Made by a program: the position numbers and the translations under genes. The notes below the pieces were generated by a model. It did not search any database, was not told the DNA's origin, and worked only from the letters and a program-made list of their open reading frames with translations. DNA of 64,000 bases, from positions 31,098 to 95,097 of the IMG/VR virus record IMGVR_UViG_3300037011_000606. One strand, 5' to 3'. The stretch comes from a virus. Positions 16,076 to 52,302 of the stretch are shown one piece after another (the stretch's first letter is position 1; each line of letters starts with the position of its first letter).

Positions 16076-17134
16076 CTAATATTCTCTCCAGCCATACTCA
16101 TGAAATGCTGGATTAGTCATATTAAACCCGCGGCTTGGATTATAAGAATGTCCCACATCCTGTAGATAGTTCATCTTCGAAGTATTCACCCACTTCTGAT
16201 AATCCATCATACTCCACTCGCCGGTCTTAAGCTTAACATCAGCTGCTTTAGACCTTATAGATTGCAGCACATAAGCTGGCTCGCGTCTATAACCTCTATC
16301 TCTATTCATTATTGCGCATTCTTTCTCCCACTCTTTAATTATAGAAGGCAATACCTTATCTAACTCCTTCATAATGGCCCCTATAATAGGCCTTCTAGGA
16401 ATATGAATCCACTTCTTCTCCATAGCTATATGCCATCCAATACTATGCAGAAAATTCCTCATCTTCGGAGTAACACCTATATCCATACCATTCTCATGTA
16501 TGCATACTAAGTCGGGCCTATTAAACACAACGTCAAATGCGGGTTCACTCCCCTCTACACCGACAATCGTTGGAGGAGTAGACAACCCACCCGATTGTAC
16601 CAACACATGACTCATACTCTCTACATTCTTACCGAAGTTATAATCAGCAACCTCATTCGGATCAGCATACGCCCAAACAGCTCTCGCCCAAGGTTTCGGG
16701 AAAGGATTCTGATACATACTATCACTATGTTCCCCTCTGCCCTTAGGTCGCAAGTTTCTATCGGGCAGATTAGTAAGGGCATACTCTAAAGTACCAACAT
16801 TCGACAACTCAATCCTTTGAGATTTAATAGATATCGTTACCCTACACAACCTATCCCACTGTGTATCTCCTAACCTTCCATCCTTAAACAAATCTATATG
16901 CATTCGGCGAATTCTATCAGCTATCTTATACAACAACCCCTTCACATTATCGAAGGTATTCTCATCAACCAAAGGTTTCTTATCAGCCGGCTTATCAGCA
17001 TGATCTGTTGAAACGAAACCATTAATCAAATCGTAGAAAAATCCGGTCCTGGTCAAACTATCTACAGTTTCAACATTGCCTGTAGTGTATACTTGCGTTG
17101 ACCATGATGCGGTACCTAGCATTGCGCCAGCCAT
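16076..17134 (-). CDS. Neck-region protein, unknown
   Basis: This 352-residue protein has an alpha/beta composition with WDRLCRVTISIKSQRIELSNVGTLEYAL, a tryptophan-rich centre, and a helical segment IGAIMKELDKVLPSIIKEWEKECAIM. No family is recognised. It sits between the adaptor and stopper genes, so a neck or tail-completion role is plausible. It is larger than most neck proteins. The ATG is preceded by GAGGGAT. Confidence 0.65.
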   Translation of the reverse strand: MAGAMLGTASWSTQVYTTGNVETVDSLTRTGFFYDLINGFVSTDHADKPADKKPLVDENTFDNVKGLLYKIADRIRRMHIDLFKDGRLGDTQWDRLCRVTISIKSQRIELSNVGTLEYALTNLPDRNLRPKGRGEHSDSMYQNPFPKPWARAVWAYADPNEVADYNFGKNVESMSHVLVQSGGLSTPPTIVGVEGSEPAFDVVFNRPDLVCIHENGMDIGVTPKMRNFLHSIGWHIAMEKKWIHIPRRPIIGAIMKELDKVLPSIIKEWEKECAIMNRDRGYRREPAYVLQSIRSKAADVKLKTGEWSMMDYQKWVNTSKMNYLQDVGHSYNPSRGFNMTNPAFHEYGWREY

Positions 17135-28882: not shown

Positions 28883-31380
28883 AGTTCAAATTCCTCCGTA
28901 TCTTCCTCTTCAATATTAAGCGCAAATTCTACTTTGTGCGGAATTAAGGTTACTGTACCTTGCAATACGTAGAATGGTATATCAGTTCCAGCAGGCGTTG
29001 TATCGTACCAAACACCGTTATATTTATAGAGAGAACTTCCTAACAAATATCCATTTCCACCATATGCTATCCTTCCAGCCCCCACAGGATCATCAGTCCC
29101 CATTATGACTATATACATATTACCAGGAACTAATGCTGGACATCCTGTTAAATTGAATATTGCCCAGTTACCATTATCCGAAAGTCCAGCCTTTCCGAAG
29201 GTTTCCTTGAATATAGGCGGTTCAACGGGCGCGCCGCCACTTGTTTCATATATCTCTATAAACTCAGATACAGGATCAATATACCCAACTCTCTTTTTCA
29301 CATACATTTTAACCCTAGCAACTGGGTCAGCAGTCACCGCTATAAATCTCTGCCCCCATTTTAAATTAGATGCAAACCAACTCCAAGAACAACCAGTTAT
29401 CGTTAGATATGATATAACAGTTCCTGAAGTTTGTAGTTCACCCATTGCTACATCCAACTCTATAGAAGCATCCTTACAGATAACTCCATTATTTCTTATC
29501 ATCTTCGAATTAGCATCAGCTTGCCATATATGTATCTTCTTTAAACATTCACTATACCCCGACCATGTAAGACCTTGATTAGTTGATCTAGTTTCTGTAC
29601 CATGATGATAATAACATGGCTGTACATTATGATGCCAATAATTATAGTTACTCTGACTAGGAGCAACGGATGTAACTACAAAGCCATATCTTACATCAGG
29701 CATTAGCCAACCCTTTGTAGTGAATTCGAAAGTTCTCCATTTATCAGACCATCCACCACTACCATATGGTATATCATCCTTTGTGAGTTCCCTTCTAGCT
29801 ATAACAACATTCAAATCGGGAGTATCGTCTGGTTTCAACGGGCATATCATAACTACGAGAGGCGTGACTGGAGGTCTACTATCACTTGTAACAGCCACAT
29901 TTGTTTCAAACCACTGTGCTTCAAATATATGTTCTACTTCAAATCGTTGACACCACCAGCTGTTTAACCATATAGCAGAGCCCCCACCCATACCTGTAGT
30001 TCTATACCAATACTCTCCTCTTACACCTTCTGCTATCTCTCCTAACTCCAAGTCAATCTCCCTTAGAGAGTCGACATCTAACCCAATCTCATGGATATCT
30101 GGCGCAACACTCTCGTCTATTAACTCCAGCTCAAATTCCTTTGTAACTCCTATCTCAGAGACCAGCCACTCCTCGAAAAGAGCATCCCAAGTATACAAAA
30201 ACTTCCAACTCCCACCAGTATACTCACAAGCTCTCCCTCCAAGATATGGACCGGTGGCATTCATCTTCCAACTACGGTTGCCACTAACTTGTACCTCACT
30301 TACAAACGCATACATTGTTCCAGCTTGTAATACAGCAACCTCACCATTGAAATTGACATAATGATCAGGAGCTTCCCAACCCCTAGTATAATTAGTATAC
30401 ACCCAGGAAGATATACGAGTGTTTGGTAGCCCACCCACCGTATTATATATAGCCCATCTTATATAATTAGGCGCGCTGTAATTCCACGCACCACCCATAT
30501 TCATTCTCCATAACCCACCTGTAATCGATGGAGTAAAGGTTTGTGCGAGCATAAGCCCAGTACTCGAAATCGAAGGTGGAGGATGAATCATTTGTTGCTG
30601 ATCTATGCCTCCAACAGCTACCATATGAACATTGTCCAAATCCAAATTAACCAGCTGAGTCTTCTCCCTATCAAGTATAAATCTCTCAACACCCTGCAAT
30701 ATATTAGACTCGACAATAAATCCGAAAGGTAAGTCATATTGAGTAATCTTCCTCCAAACAGGTGGTGACCTATTCGAATACACAAACTCTCCGCCAGGAT
30801 AGCTCGCAGGATACAAATGGTTTAAGCTTATCTTCCACTTACTAGCGATCTCATCGGACCTATACATAAACCCATACTTTACCCCAACTGTCAACACCAA
30901 GGGGCTAGCGAAGTCATAAATCTCCCAAGTATCCACTGTTGATGGTGCATCAGCCGGGTCAATTAATATTTGAGCTAAGGTCGCGCCAGTTGGCCAGCCC
31001 AATCCATCTAGCTCCTTTATCTCTATAATAAAGGGCAATGTTGGCGGATTTGCAACATTCTTATATATAGGAACATTCACCCCAGTTATGATAACCGGAT
31101 CAGTGAGAGTAAACTGCTGACACCAAAGGTATATACCCCCACAATCCATTCCATAACCTATACCCGGAGGATAGTATCCAACTCTAACATCCCTCTTCTC
31201 CAAATCAGCTTCCAACTCAAAATCTACTACATTCTCGAAGCTCGACTCCAGTTCAAATGGAGCTAGGTTCTCAGTCTCCAACTCAATATTCACTATCTCA
31301 TGAGTTACATCTCCATCAGTATACCCATAACCCAATGTTACCAGGGCGCCTTCCCCAAAGCCATGTGTAACTATCGTCAT
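28879..31380 (-). CDS. Large modular tail protein with four beta-sandwich modules and acidic linkers
   Basis: This 833-residue protein contains about four related modules of ~150 residues. Each has a 'W(C)QxF...' start (LWCQQFTLTD, LMLAQTFTPS, SWWCQRFEVE, LKWGQRFIAV), a central DGLGWPTG/GGLPNT-type loop, and a closing strand with G(V/T)KYGFM, GTMYAFV, DVRYGFVV or GNMYIVI. Between modules are acidic strands such as LETENLAPFELES and EFELELIDES, and the last residues are EEDTEEFEL. The modules look like carbohydrate-binding sandwiches. A receptor-binding role is inferred. The ATGA overlap couples it to the BppU-like gene. Confidence 0.7.
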   Translation of the reverse strand: MTIVTHGFGEGALVTLGYGYTDGDVTHEIVNIELETENLAPFELESSFENVVDFELEADLEKRDVRVGYYPPGIGYGMDCGGIYLWCQQFTLTDPVIITGVNVPIYKNVANPPTLPFIIEIKELDGLGWPTGATLAQILIDPADAPSTVDTWEIYDFASPLVLTVGVKYGFMYRSDEIASKWKISLNHLYPASYPGGEFVYSNRSPPVWRKITQYDLPFGFIVESNILQGVERFILDREKTQLVNLDLDNVHMVAVGGIDQQQMIHPPPSISSTGLMLAQTFTPSITGGLWRMNMGGAWNYSAPNYIRWAIYNTVGGLPNTRISSWVYTNYTRGWEAPDHYVNFNGEVAVLQAGTMYAFVSEVQVSGNRSWKMNATGPYLGGRACEYTGGSWKFLYTWDALFEEWLVSEIGVTKEFELELIDESVAPDIHEIGLDVDSLREIDLELGEIAEGVRGEYWYRTTGMGGGSAIWLNSWWCQRFEVEHIFEAQWFETNVAVTSDSRPPVTPLVVMICPLKPDDTPDLNVVIARRELTKDDIPYGSGGWSDKWRTFEFTTKGWLMPDVRYGFVVTSVAPSQSNYNYWHHNVQPCYYHHGTETRSTNQGLTWSGYSECLKKIHIWQADANSKMIRNNGVICKDASIELDVAMGELQTSGTVISYLTITGCSWSWFASNLKWGQRFIAVTADPVARVKMYVKKRVGYIDPVSEFIEIYETSGGAPVEPPIFKETFGKAGLSDNGNWAIFNLTGCPALVPGNMYIVIMGTDDPVGAGRIAYGGNGYLLGSSLYKYNGVWYDTTPAGTDIPFYVLQGTVTLIPHKVEFALNIEEEDTEEFEL

Positions 31381-43699: not shown

Positions 43700-43748
43700 A
43701 CTATATAAACTGTTCGGACTGTCGGACCACAAGGGAGGGGTATTGACT
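43679..43748 (-). promoter_or_regulatory. Late operon promoter with shared upstream element
   Basis: On the - strand AGTCAATACCCCTCCC (43748-43733), then GTTTATATAG (TATA-like, 43711-43702), CGAGATATATATA (43694-43682). Element and AT block match the capsid-module promoter at 19.37 kb, though the spacing between them is 38 bases here and 21 there. Transcription should start near 43679. Confidence 0.7.
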
Positions 43749-43797: not shown

Positions 43798-43812
43798 CCC
43801 CCCCCCCCCCCC
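43798..43812. repeat. 15-C homopolymer
   Basis: Fifteen C in a row on the + strand (G on the - strand) lie between the late promoter and the cytosine-free region. A frame open from ATG 43864 on the - strand runs through it in phase with the first late gene, and a TATA-like GTATAAAAAT lies just upstream of that ATG. Length changes here would switch such an extended N-terminus on or off. Confidence 0.8.
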
Positions 43813-43902
43813 AGAAAGCTATGAACCTCAAAGATTGGGGGGCGACCTTTCTTTCTATGAGCATCGCGGATTGGGAGCTGGCCGTTATTTTTATACGTGC
43901 CC

Positions 43903-44890
43903 TAATAGTAATTATAATATATATAAATGTTTAATTAAGTATTATTATTTAATTATATGTAGAGAGTATAATTAATATAATATTATAATAATAATAATAT
44001 AGTAATGGGTAATAGATATAATAGAATAGTATATGTAGAGAGGTGTTGTGAGTAGTAATTATATAATAGGTTAGTTATATGATATAGTAGATAGTTGTTA
44101 ATATTATTAGTTTAAGAGAAGAGGTGGTGGTGTTGTTTAGATGGGTTTAGTTGTTGAAGATAGGTTAATGTTATAATGGGTTAGTTGTTAGTATTAATTG
44201 TTTAGAGTAAGAGTTTATAATATATGTTAGTTGTTATAATATAGTAGTGTTGGTAATGTATATAGGTATAGTTGGGTATTTGTATGTTGTAGAGGTTGAA
44301 GAGAATGTTGAGAGTGGTTAGTAGTATGTAGTTATAATTTTTTGAAGTTTGGGATTGGAGATATGATTATAGTTTTTTAAGTATATGATTATAGATTTTT
44401 GGATAGGTAGTTATTGTTATTGGTGGTGGAGGTTATTGTTAAGGGGGAGAGAGAGGAGAGTGTTTGTGAAGTTGGTTATGTATAGTAGATGGGTTTGGAT
44501 GTTTGTTTGGAATTTATTTTTAATATATAAAATTAATTTTTTAATTTAGATAAAAATAATATTATATATTAAAAATAAATTGGTTAAAATAATTAATTAT
44601 TTATTGGTTAAATTTTTTTAATATTTAAATATTTTTATAATTTATTATAAAATTGGTGATTTATAAAAATAATTAAATATTAATATTTGTTAGTTGTAGA
44701 TTGGTTATTGGTGAGTAATAAAAATTTTTGTGAAAATAATTAATTATTTTAAAGGTTAGATGGTTTAATTTGGTAAATGTGTTAGAATTGTTTAGAGTTT
44801 AAAATTGGTTAAATATAGAAAATTATATTGGTGAGAATTGTAGATGGAGTTGGATAAATTTTTATTTTAATTTTATGAAAATAAAAATTT
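43903..44890. other. Repeat-rich, origin-like intergenic region between divergent operons
   Basis: No gene is seen here. Direct repeats include TTAGTTGTT at 44147, 44181 and 44227, ATATGATTATAG at 44361 and 44383 (22-base period), and ATTGGTTA four times in the same direction at 44579, 44603, 44700 and 44804. An 18-bp palindrome AAAATAATTAATTATTTT lies at 44733-44750 and its 16-bp core recurs at 44587-44602. A purine block GGGGGAGAGAGAGGAGAG ends the G-containing part near 44460. Iteron-like repeats, AT-rich DNA and the divergence point all fit a replication origin and promoters of the rightward operon. This is inference. Confidence 0.65.
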
Positions 44891-44901
44891 AGGTGATTGA
44901 T

Positions 44902-45699
44902 ATGTGTATGAATATGAAGGATGGAGAGATGTGTATGAAGGTTGAATGTAATAATGAGATTGTGGATAAGGTAAGAGATTTGATAGTTGGGTTTGAGATT
45001 AGGAAGGATGAAGAAAGGATTGAGATGGATAGGAATAATAATGATAGTTTGAGAATGTGGAAGGAGAAGAGGAAGAATGAGATGTTATTGGTTAAGTATG
45101 GTAAGGTGATTAATGAGGTAAGGAAGAATTTGAGGATTGTTGAAGAGTTGGGGGTTGTTAAGGGGAATGGTTGGGAATTTTGGAAGAATGAGGTGAGTGG
45201 TGGGAGAGAGATTGAGATTGTGAGTTTTGGGAATAAGGTTAAGGAAGTTGTTGAAGGTTATAAGGTGATAGTTGAGAGAAAGAATGTTTGTGAGAATTGT
45301 GGATTGAGTGTATGTAGATTGGATTGGGTGATGGATGAGAAGATGGTTAAGAAGAGTGGAAGAGGATTTGTTGGAAAGATGTTGGTTGGGAATTGTGGGT
45401 TGAAGTGGAATTGTGAGTTGAAGAATGATGAGTTTGGTGTTGATGTTGTTGAGGGTGTATTGGAAGGAGTTTGGAGTGAGGTTATAGATGGAGATAGGAT
45501 GGAAAGGAAAGTTGAGAGTGATTTGAGATATGAGAATTTTGTTAAGGATTGGAATAATGGAGTGTTTTTGAGAAAGTGGAAAGTTAATAAGATGAGAGAG
45601 TTGGATGAGAAGGTAAAGAATAAGGGAAGGTTGATTGTTGAGAGATTGAATAGGATGTTGAATGAGAAGAAGGTAGTTGATGGAGTGGTGATAGAGTGA
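44902..45699 (+). CDS. Cytosine-free gene: 265-residue protein made of 15 amino acids
   Basis: Start chosen at ATG 44902 because AGGTGAT lies four bases upstream (a GTG at 44893 inside that site is the alternative). The coding strand has no C, so only 24 sense codons exist. The protein uses exactly the 15 amino acids they encode and lacks Ala, His, Pro, Gln and Thr. With three of the 27 C-free codons being stops, 265 open codons cannot be chance, so the gene is real and selected. It is rich in Lys, Glu, Val and Asn, and has VCENCGLSVC and NCGLKWNC, which could form a four- or five-cysteine zinc site, flanked by charged helices. No family can be recognised because of the biased composition. 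It may be the first early gene. Confidence 0.9.
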   Translation: MCMNMKDGEMCMKVECNNEIVDKVRDLIVGFEIRKDEERIEMDRNNNDSLRMWKEKRKNEMLLVKYGKVINEVRKNLRIVEELGVVKGNGWEFWKNEVSGGREIEIVSFGNKVKEVVEGYKVIVERKNVCENCGLSVCRLDWVMDEKMVKKSGRGFVGKMLVGNCGLKWNCELKNDEFGVDVVEGVLEGVWSEVIDGDRMERKVESDLRYENFVKDWNNGVFLRKWKVNKMRELDEKVKNKGRLIVERLNRMLNEKKVVDGVVIE

Positions 45700-45786
45700 T
45701 TATATTTTTTAAAGATTTGAGATTTTTGTTTATGTTATTGAGAATGAATGGGTTTGGATTTTGAATGGTTTTTGTTGGTGATGGTG

Positions 45787-45900
45787 ATGGATTGGGATGT
45801 TGTTATGGATAGGATGGTTAAATATAAGGACGTTGATAAGGATATTATAAGGAGATGGGATTTTAAAGTAATGGTTAGAATGTTAGGTGAGGTGATTTGA
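45787..45900 (+). CDS. Possible 37-residue protein in the C-poor region
   Basis: ATG 45787 follows TTGGTGATGGTG and opens 37 codons (MDWDVVMDRMVKYKDVDKDI ... GEVI). Only one C occurs in the gene (45831). It is charged and probably helical. The ribosome site and the purine-rich codon pattern support it, but it is short. Confidence 0.5.
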   Translation: MDWDVVMDRMVKYKDVDKDIIRRWDFKVMVRMLGEVI

Positions 45901-45942
45901 TATGGTAAATTTATGTAAGGAGAATGTTGGAGGTGGTTTAAA

Positions 45943-46083
45943 ATGGTAGAGAATGTTAAGTTGAAGTTTGTAAGGATAGAGGAAAAGGACTTAGTTGAAT
46001 TTGATAGGATAATGGCGATGGATATTGATATTAAGGTGAAGAGGGCGTTTGTGGAATTGGTGAAGGAATTGGTGGAGTTATGA
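45943..46083 (+). CDS. 46-residue helical protein
   Basis: The gene starts at ATG 45943 after GGAGGTGG and ends in TGA that overlaps the next ATG (ATGA at 46080-46083). The sequence MVENVKLKFVRIEEKDLVEFD ... ELVKELVEL suggests two helices with acidic and basic faces. Alanine reappears here, encoded by GCG. Unknown function. Confidence 0.65.
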   Translation: MVENVKLKFVRIEEKDLVEFDRIMAMDIDIKVKRAFVELVKELVEL

Positions 46084-46238
46084 TTATTGATTTAAATGAG
46101 GATGAGATAGTGGATATTATAATGGCGTTAAATATTATGGACGATGGATTTGATAAGATATTCGCTGGAAAGATAATAAAAGAAGATGTTAAAAAGTTGA
46201 AGGAAAAGTTTAGAGATATGTTGGAGAAGGTGATGTAG
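46080..46238 (+). CDS. 52-residue helical protein
   Basis: Coupled to the previous gene by ATGA and to the next by TAG directly followed by ATG. The protein (MIIDLNEDEIVDIIMALNIM ... KEKFRDMLEKVM) is acidic at the start and basic near the end, all helical. It may bind a partner or nucleic acid, but no family is recognised. Confidence 0.7.
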   Translation: MIIDLNEDEIVDIIMALNIMDDGFDKIFAGKIIKEDVKKLKEKFRDMLEKVM

Positions 46239-50558: not shown

Positions 50559-50889
50559 GGTCTTTTTTTCTTTGGGCACCGCATCCAGCCGTCTGCTGCT
50601 TATGAACCCAGGTACGGACGTAGATATTGTAACATCCCGGGGGCCCCTCGTCCCGGGGCCGTTCATCAAGAGCATATTTGTACGGACGTGATTCCGTTGG
50701 GCCGGGCGTCCGGGCATCCCCTCCTGGCCGGGTACAAAACTCCCAGTTCATACCCTTCCTAAGGGACACAGTGCCGTAGAGCCCACTTCAAGAGGTTTGT
50801 GCCTCAAGAGACCTGGACAGGAGTTTCAGGGTCCAGATACGGGAGCAAAGTTCATTAGAGACGGTTCATACGAATAGGTCGTTAAGGAA
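50559..50889. other. GC-rich non-coding block 1
   Basis: No convincing gene. It begins with a T-tract that probably ends the upstream transcript. It holds a direct repeat GTACGGACGT (50612-50621 and 50680-50689), a self-complementary CCCGGGGGCCCC...CCCGGGG region near 50636-50658 able to form a strong hairpin, and the left copy of a 34-bp repeat shared with block 2 (50727-50760). A structured RNA or protein-binding locus is possible. Confidence 0.6.
50727..50760 (+). repeat. 34-bp dispersed repeat, copy 1
   Basis: GCCGGGTACAAAA, five variable bases, AGTTCATAC, then a C(C/T)TTCC ending. The copy at 51274 has the same two blocks at the same 18-base offset. Both lie in non-coding DNA downstream of a T-rich stop signal. 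Confidence 0.7.
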
Positions 50890-50938
50890 AAGTTTATATA
50901 GTTAGATGGGGATATATCATTAGAGTAAAAAACTCTAA
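50890..50938 (+). promoter_or_regulatory. Promoter and operator-like palindrome of the 50946 regulator
   Basis: AAAAGTTTATATAG (TATA box with upstream A-rich element, ~50888-50901) lies about 25 bases before TTAGAGT AAAAA ACTCTAA (50920-50938), an inverted repeat that would overlap the start of transcription. The downstream gene codes a winged-helix protein, so autoregulation is likely. Confidence 0.75.
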
Positions 50939-50945
50939 GGAAGGT

Positions 50946-51218
50946 ATGGGAATGTGTCCAATAGGAATTGAGGAGTTGGAGAAGAAGGGCCAGGAAGTAG
51001 GAACGTCGCCAAAGGAGTCCCGCGTGACCCAAGTATTGGCTGTTATGAGGAAAAACCCCAAGACCGCCTACACGCAGGCCGATATGGCGAAGGAGCTGAA
51101 GATCGGCAAGACCCATGCAAACCAGGTCCTGAGGGGACTGGTTGAGAAGGGAATTGCCCGGCGAGCCCAGGTGAGCGAGAGCGGGAAGACGCTGATATAC
51201 TACGCTCTGGTGAAGTAG
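50946..51218 (+). CDS. Winged-helix regulator, paralogue of the 49066 gene
   Basis: 90 residues from ATG 50946, behind AAGGAAGGT (ATG closer to the conserved start MCPIGIEELEKKG at 50952 is a GTG/ATG alternative two codons on). The pieces QEVGTSPKESRVTQVLAVMRKN, AYTQADMAKELKIGKTHANQVLRGLVEKGIARR and KTLIYYALVK parallel the 49066 protein throughout. GC-rich codons, own TATA promoter with palindromic operator, and own terminator make it a single-gene unit, the usual form for a viral master regulator. Confidence 0.88.
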   Translation: MGMCPIGIEELEKKGQEVGTSPKESRVTQVLAVMRKNPKTAYTQADMAKELKIGKTHANQVLRGLVEKGIARRAQVSESGKTLIYYALVK

Positions 51219-51231
51219 ATTCGTGACCTGG

Positions 51232-51264
51232 GGGACCGCGGATCGGTCCCTTTGGTCTTTTTTA
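51232..51264 (+). terminator. Intrinsic terminator after the 50946 gene
   Basis: Perfect stem GGGACCG (51232-51238), loop CGGAT, CGGTCCC (51244-51250), followed by TTTGGTCTTTTTTA. It lies 13 bases after the stop codon. Confidence 0.85.
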
Positions 51265-52302
51265 TTGGTACCAGCCGGGTACAAAAAGCTAAGTTCATAC
51301 CTTTCCAGTGGGCGGAGTATGCAAATGGCCACTGGGGCTCTTACATCACTGCGCACTTCCCCTAGAGAGCCGGCCGTTTTACATATCAGTTGTAGTTCGG
51401 GCGGGCCAATGGACCAAGTATTTAGTTTTGGATGGGGACAGCTGGATGGTGAGTGTAATTTTGGGCCTAAGCCGGTCGGGCCGCCATACAATCTTCATTC
51501 ATGCTTTCCTGACTCTCACATACGCTTTTCCTGACTCCGGACCGATGGGGACCAACGAAACGCCGCTCTCCATCCATTTTTTCCAAAAAAACAGGGGCAC
51601 CCAAGAGGACGAGCGGCTCTCCTATATAGCTCCTCCTCCGGATAAATGGGGCCCCTCAAGAAATTCCTTCCAGATAAAAAGAACTCAAGGCTCCCACTAT
51701 ATAAATACCTACGTATATCCGCATAGATTCTTACATTAAGCCCAGCATCGCCTCCAGTTTTGTTTGGGAGGACGAGCATCTCATTCGAGGTGGCCAAGTG
51801 GAATCCGCTCATAAGTACTTTCTTCCCCCCGGCCTTTTGTATAAAAGTACATTTGGGCGCGGTAATCTTGAGCCGATAGCACCCTTCCACCCACAGGTCA
51901 CTTCCTAAAACTTTCCCTTTGGCCACCCATAGAACTCTCCAGAACCCCTTCTAAGGTCTTATTATTATTGTGGACACGCTGCACTTCCAACTATTTTTAT
52001 ATGGATGAGCATCTCATCCCATAGAGACATGTAGGGTGGTGGGCAAGAACAGTGATATATATATACAGATTTAGTTTTAAATAGAAGTAGGCAGGCTCAA
52101 AGAACATGATATATATATATTGATTTATGTTTAAGAATAGGACCGGACTATCAAAGTGTGGGTTTTCCATAGTCCACAACCTTTAAATACTTGTAATGTG
52201 ATATTCATACTAAGAAGGAATGGAAATGACTAATGACCAATCATCAACTCATCATTCTTGGAAATTAGGAACGGCCTCGCCGTCTACGCGACATCTCCGT
52301 TA
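51265..52302. other. Non-coding block 2 with repeats, hairpins and promoter-like sites
   Basis: About 1 kb without a convincing gene. It holds the second copy of the 34-bp repeat (51274-51307), TATA-like boxes ACTATATAAATAC (~51696) and CCTTTAAATAC (~52188), GAGCATCTCAT at 51774 and again at 52007 inside the palindrome GATGAGCATCTCATC (52004-52018), and a diverged direct repeat AGAACA(G)TGATATATATATA at 52046 and 52101. A possible 27-codon frame at 52220-52303 (MEMTNDQSSTHHSWK...) follows the second box. On the - strand, 51926-51700 has a coding-like frame (MAKGKVLGSDLWVEGCYRLK...) that may be a decayed gene. Small RNAs or a second origin are possible. Confidence 0.5.
51274..51307 (+). repeat. 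34-bp dispersed repeat, copy 2
   Basis: GCCGGGTACAAAA at 51274-51286 and AGTTCATAC at 51292-51300, same offset as copy 1 at 50727. GTACC just upstream can pair with the GGTAC inside the repeat to form a small hairpin absent from copy 1. Confidence 0.7.

Follow-up and report, generated by a model that had tools for sequence, protein, structure and literature searches.

A 1928-nt viral tract that lacks cytosine on one strand and contains an intact gene

How can almost two kilobases of viral DNA, with a complete protein-coding gene among them, come to hold not one cytosine on one of their strands? The question is raised by IMG/VR record IMGVR_UViG_3300037011_000606 (95,097 nt), of which positions 31,098 to 95,097 form a 64-kb stretch referred to below as the window, whose numbering is used unless the record is named. 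An earlier reading of this DNA, made from the letters and a list of open reading frames (ORFs) and here called the sequence-only reading, had claimed that every base of the + strand from 43903 to 45830 is A, G or T, and a recount finds this to be exact: there are 0 C in 1928 nt. To our knowledge, no other natural complex sequence of this length, with an entire protein gene inside it, is missing a base from one of its strands, and a limited literature search turned up no example. The explanation that we prefer, although our confidence in it falls just short of even, is that the + strand is recurrently single-stranded here, as part of an R-loop or D-loop at an early promoter or origin, and that C-to-T change has run to completion.

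The cytosine-free tract and the gene within it

With C at 8-10% locally, a C-free run of 1928 nt has a probability of 1e-70 to 1e-88, and with C at 2% the value would still be 1e-17. Away from the locus, the next longest C-free run in the window measures 104 nt, and the longest in the rest of the 95,097-nt record is 74 nt. Furthermore, no C-free run of 159 nt was found in any of 48 other virus records, which are mostly tailed viruses found via their terminases and mostly bacterial or metagenomic, with haloarchaeal and methanogen viruses included. The early gene block also provides an internal control, since C is normal, and skew slight, in its other long stretch without a convincing gene (~50.6-52.3 kb). 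As an observation in its own right, window positions ~50600-52300 have a GC content of ~0.5, no skew and no convincing genes.

The two ends of the tract were described in the sequence-only reading as sharp on the left and graded on the right. The first part of this description stands: the last C lies at 43902, the 200 nt leftward of the edge contain 25.5% C, and the bias jumps ~100-fold within a few nucleotides, as if it set in at a fixed physical point, for instance where a transcript or a primer begins. On the right, the long smooth gradient has given way in a change-point fit to three zones, with 0 C, ~2% C and, from 46240, ~10.7% C. The middle zone begins with a single C at 45831, after which a second C-free run reaches 45989. 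Within the tract no C stands beside 735 T, so that C makes up at most 0.4% of C+T, an upper limit that puts the bias above about 240:1. The first leftward gene probably starts at 43702 rather than 43864, leaving ~200 nt of normal-C intergenic DNA to the left of the edge. This DNA carries a C15 homopolymer (Table 1) that lies ~90 nt from the edge and could vary in length or form a G-quadruplex or hybrid.

The tract was also said to span about 1 kb of non-coding DNA and a complete gene, and this is borne out, with 990 nt lacking codon periodicity upstream of an intact ORF (44902-45699). Codon periodicity in the ORF is strong (chi-square 76; null 4.2 +/- 2.9). Its product is built from 15 amino acids, without Ala, Pro, Thr, Gln or His, and has two Cys-rich, zinc-ribbon-like stretches. 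No relatives of the protein were found in viral contigs, genome contigs, phages, Pfam, PHROGs or NCBIfam, a PDB search returned chance-level matches only, and a single-sequence AlphaFold model was uninformative (mean pLDDT 29.6).

The tract is known from one metagenomic record, and close relatives covering the locus were not found, as might be the case if it were an assembly, sequencing or chemical artefact, or the result of a single recent conversion event. The gene argues otherwise. When C was converted to T in silico in 28 neighbouring early genes, 2.3% of codons became stops, which amounts to ~6 per ORF of such length, and the probability that a 265-codon ORF survives a single conversion of a typical early gene is about 0.002. 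In addition, the composition of the protein differs from that expected of a one-shot conversion (p 1e-5): Val, the product of C-to-T change in Ala codons, is raised to 14.7% of residues versus 8.6%, which agrees with the conversion expectation of 13.5%, but Phe, Ile and Tyr lie below, and Asn above, the values from conversion alone. The gene has therefore had time to adapt to a three-letter alphabet, and the ~6 stops expected from a one-off change likewise indicate that the C-free state is old and inherited, rather than an artefact of read-out. The strong codon periodicity, the iterons and hairpins described below, and the circular map also speak against an artefact or a recent conversion, either of which we consider very improbable.

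The divergent junction and its counterpart in a relative

The ends of the record overlap by ~125 nt, which implies a circular map. Judging from its genes, the virus is of the tailed, archaeal type (Caudoviricetes), probably with an archaeal host; it possesses HK97-type capsid, terminase, portal and tail genes with archaeal-type nearest relatives, and haloarchaeal and methanogen viruses are among the nearest named matches of its baseplate, polymerase and capsid proteins. Also encoded are a family-B DNA polymerase (PolB), a ribonucleotide reductase, an ERCC4-type nuclease, a dUTPase-like protein and a family-4 uracil-DNA glycosylase (UDG) of the thermophile/archaeal type (L010:13709-14398), which is found in the relatives G003, G008 and G012 as well. 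The ability to make 7-deazaguanine, which might serve to modify DNA, is suggested by QueD, QueE and FolE2 (L010:11371-14398) and by a QueC that is encoded by one of the early ORFs.

The late block is read leftward from ~43.7 kb and the early block rightward from ~44.9 kb, which places the tract at a divergent junction. The intergenic region at this junction is AT-rich and rich in repeats and hairpins, as expected of an origin of the R-loop or D-loop type. Its composition changes along the non-coding part, from AT-rich (43903-44040) to G-richer (44041-44500) and back to AT-rich (44501-44892). A recently destroyed gene in 43903-44892 is ruled out by the absence of codon periodicity, and the tract is neither a repeat nor decayed DNA. 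Seven direct repeats, or iterons, of the form ATTGGT[TG]A occur, against an expectation of 0.12; none of 5000 shuffles of 44500-44892 contained more than 2. There are also two inverted repeats made of A and T only, and the folding energy of 44500-44700 is -40.2 kcal/mol, compared with -25.6 +/- 3.1 kcal/mol in shuffles. Iterons and A/T-only hairpins of this kind are typical of an origin or a regulator-binding region. Candidate TATA boxes flank the left edge, the leftward of which would place the start of late-block transcription near that edge, and two oligo-T runs just past the ORF could form an archaeal-type terminator. A search for structural RNA or tRNA within the tract found none.

Table 1 Features of the cytosine-free tract and its borders (window coordinates).
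Feature	Position	Strand	Details
C-free tract	43903-45830	+	1928 nt, by base count
Non-coding part	43903-44892	+	990 nt; no codon periodicity
Intact C-free ORF	44902-45699	+	265 aa from ATG; GGTGAT motif upstream at 44892-44897
Seven direct repeats (iterons), ATTGGT[TG]A	44579-44834	+	At 44579, 44603, 44652, 44700, 44707, 44804, 44827
A/T-only inverted repeat	44511-44581		30-nt arms, 93% complementary
Second A/T-only inverted repeat	44618-44683		23-nt arms, 96% complementary
Candidate rightward TATA box	43888-43895	+	TTTTTATA; 1 mismatch to TTTAWATA; 7 nt left of the C-free edge
Candidate leftward TATA box	43920-43927	-	TTTATATA; exact match
Two oligo-T runs	45705-45710, 45723-45727	+	Just past the ORF; candidate archaeal-type terminator
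Transition zone	45831-46238	+	8 C in 408 nt (2%), 6 of 8 in CpG; C ~10.7% beyond
C15 homopolymer	43798-43812	+	Sole C or G run of at least 8 in the window; G15 in the presumed leftward leader

The coding strands of both gene blocks, and those of the relative G012, are poor in C, and the skew switches at the tract. It follows gene orientation even where a pair of genes at record 13.7-15.6 kb is oppositely oriented: the base skew of this inverted pair, which includes the ERCC4-nuclease gene, has turned along with the genes. This ties the general bias to transcription and argues against the direction of the replication fork as the cause of the genome-wide skew. The pair itself (L009:13703-15553) comprises the nuclease gene and a neighbour of 387 aa, opposite to the surrounding early genes; their G012 homologues are co-oriented with the genes around them.

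A set of related contigs was found through 35-77% identity in the terminase or the major capsid protein. G001 to G011, which are related by terminase or capsid, either cover regions away from this junction or are too distant or incomplete to show it, and none has a C-free run above 95 nt. The only relative that covers the junction is G012, an 88.9-kb record with overlapping ends and a major capsid protein 42% identical, in which a homologue (41% identity) of the gene that opens the leftward block marks the junction. Here the junction (L125, 14.7-17.3 kb) is AT-rich and rich in repeats and palindromes, C is normal, and the longest C-free run in the whole record is 92 nt. A junction of this character is thus common to both viruses, whereas the loss of C is derived and lineage-specific, which counts against a family-wide C-free system. 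The sequence-only reading had named, as something that would refute it, related genomes in which C is normal at this place and C-free tracts are lacking elsewhere. G012 is such a genome, but a distant one, and thus shows that the trait is derived and not that it is an artefact. At the G012 junction, arrays of GTTACA...TGTAAT repeats and palindromes (L125:15699-15932 and 16961-17001) mark a candidate origin or operator. The early genes of G012 strongly avoid C on the coding strand (6-12%), where it is lower than in the late genes; the early genes of L125:4001-5000, with 6%, have the family's lowest value outside the tract.

Routes to the loss of cytosine

Three causes were first put forward: C-to-T change on a strand that is kept open, at an origin or in an R-loop; selection to keep G out of the other strand; and selection for transcription that needs no cytidine triphosphate (CTP). 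The first fits best with the divergent junction, the iterons, the hairpins and the low coding-strand C across the family, although the cause is unproven. We infer that the tract is an early control region, probably origin-like, with an adjoining regulator or initiator gene, and that the + strand would be recurrently single-stranded rightward of a fixed point near 43903. In the simplest version, that of an R-loop, this would be the non-template strand of a rightward transcript running from near the left edge to the oligo-T runs past the ORF; alternatively, it would be the displaced strand of a D-loop begun near 43903. Exposed C would be deaminated to U and then copied as T, so that over many generations, with little reversal, all C would be lost, while iterons, hairpins and ORF, now spelled in three letters, would be preserved by purifying selection. 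The tract looks like an extreme case of transcription-linked C depletion, sited where the + strand may remain open. This explanation is favoured by the lack of C across non-coding and coding DNA alike, by an edge that lies within about 30 nt of the candidate TATA boxes, by the relaxation of C loss just past the oligo-T runs, by a Val content near that expected from conversion of Ala codons, and by a shift with distance in the contexts of residual C (see below). The viral family-4 UDG and dUTPase-like protein are compatible with uracil being a problem for the virus.

Several points weigh against such a C-to-T ratchet. A virus-encoded UDG should oppose it, and G012 has a viral UDG and a similar skew, yet no C-free tract. 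C has been lost at amino-acid-changing sites too, which would need mutation to overpower selection. Furthermore, strand-specific mutation is described as weak in archaeal chromosomes in a recent survey (PMC12999951), which makes the tract, by that account, more unusual. The deaminase proposed as a possible agent was not found in the virus: the HxE...PCxxC cytidine-deaminase motif is absent from all ORFs of at least 50 aa, as is a Pfam deaminase among the proteins scanned. A virus-encoded deaminase is therefore unsupported; a host enzyme may be responsible. The contexts of the residual C might be read as the trace of an enzyme, with 6 of the 8 in the transition zone lying in CpG (p 0.004 versus 25%; p 0.02 versus the TpG share), and with a CpG share that falls, and a pyrimidine-preceded share that rises, with distance along the flank (permutation p 0.008 and 0.003, respectively). 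These contexts comprise only 8-9 sites, however, and run opposite to the pattern of normal early genes, in which GAC is rarer before G (CpG avoidance at Asp codons), and we therefore claim no enzyme signature.

The main rival, and a serious one, is selection for a C-free RNA: the tract would be one transcription unit, makeable when CTP is scarce or poisoned, or able to escape a C-specific activity directed at RNA. Its ORF would then encode an immediate-early protein, expressed under CTP shortage or poisoning, for example during a viperin-type ddhCTP defence. The C-free interval does enclose the whole ORF, from upstream of the ribosome-binding motif to 131 nt past the stop, with the oligo-T runs in between, and C is low on the coding strand throughout, with early genes in G012 poorer in it than late ones. 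The viperins of archaea and bacteria produce ddhCTP, which terminates growing RNA chains (PMC10732462), but prokaryotic viperins make ddhUTP and ddhGTP too. The 990 nt of upstream non-coding DNA are also C-free, which would require a long C-free leader; a transcript of the tract is only presumed, and the early genes that follow carry 10-12% C. In addition, a handful of C would cost a 2-kb RNA little, and removal of the last one would take strong selection. Weighing these points, we think selection for a C-free RNA unlikely, while taking it seriously. Its more specific form, in which the C-free unit would let the virus express its first gene without CTP and would answer, through base composition, a host defence that poisons nucleotides or depletes CTP, seems to us slightly less likely still.

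Selection might instead act on the DNA, for a G-free - strand, left unmodified under a preQ0-type guanine modification, or for a deamination-proof + strand; in a variant of the latter, U arising in a strand that stays single for long would stall the family-B polymerase or attract cleavage by UDG, and C would have been purged for that reason. The enzymes for such scenarios, QueD, QueE, FolE2, QueC, the family-4 UDG, the dUTPase-like protein and PolB, are all encoded by the virus. G012, however, has most of this set (FolE2, QueE, UDG and PolB homologues) and no C-free tract, a DNA guanine transglycosylase was not identified in the virus, and the guanine-modification version gives no reason for an abrupt left edge. 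We regard selection at the level of DNA as improbable.

Should the C-to-T ratchet be correct, the tract would preserve, like a fossil, the identity of the exposed strand, the point from which it is exposed and the duration of the exposure, an origin or early promoter could be recognised from sequence alone, and strand-specific C-to-T change would be at work in an archaeal virus, where such mutation is said to be weak. Should selection have been the cause, the gene would be one written to need no CTP. In either case, a three-letter gene with 15 amino acids offers a natural test of how coding adapts to a missing base.

Comparison with known systems

In the R-loop replication origins of phage T4, an early promoter and an RNA-DNA hybrid leave the non-template strand single-stranded (PMC3016281). 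The tract resembles these origins in being a candidate virus origin region with a putative early promoter, here in the form of an AT-rich junction with hairpins and iterons, and differs from them in that its R-loop or origin activity is a proposal. Furthermore, we know of no base that is missing from T4 origins.

A second parallel is provided by enzymes that deaminate exposed strands. APOBEC3B is reported to deaminate at R-loops (PMC10562255), and fusions of T7 RNA polymerase to deaminases produce mainly coding-strand C-to-T changes between promoter and terminator, with leakage that is greater downstream than upstream (PMC10250238). Somatic hypermutation by AID, APOBEC3B at R-loops and the engineered MutaT7 would share with the tract a coding-strand C-to-T change that is bounded by promoter and terminator, with downstream leakage. 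In contrast to these systems, no deaminase was found here, the fixation over 1.9 kb goes far beyond what they leave behind, and the gene stays intact. Strand biases in mitochondrial control regions and prokaryotic genomes have likewise been attributed to deamination of C in exposed single strands (PMC4182315, PMC2031905); those skews are partial, whereas in the tract C is absent and the edge abrupt.

Finally, the iteron replicons of plasmids and phages have at least three short boxes, repeated directly, beside the gene for their binding protein. The tract is similar in that its seven iterons are tandemly oriented short repeats directly upstream of a gene for a possible DNA-binding protein, and differs in that the C-free ORF has no detectable Rep homology, a Rep domain not having been found in its product. 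T4 origins, APOBEC3B and the T7 polymerase-deaminase fusions are analogies to the tract, not family assignments.
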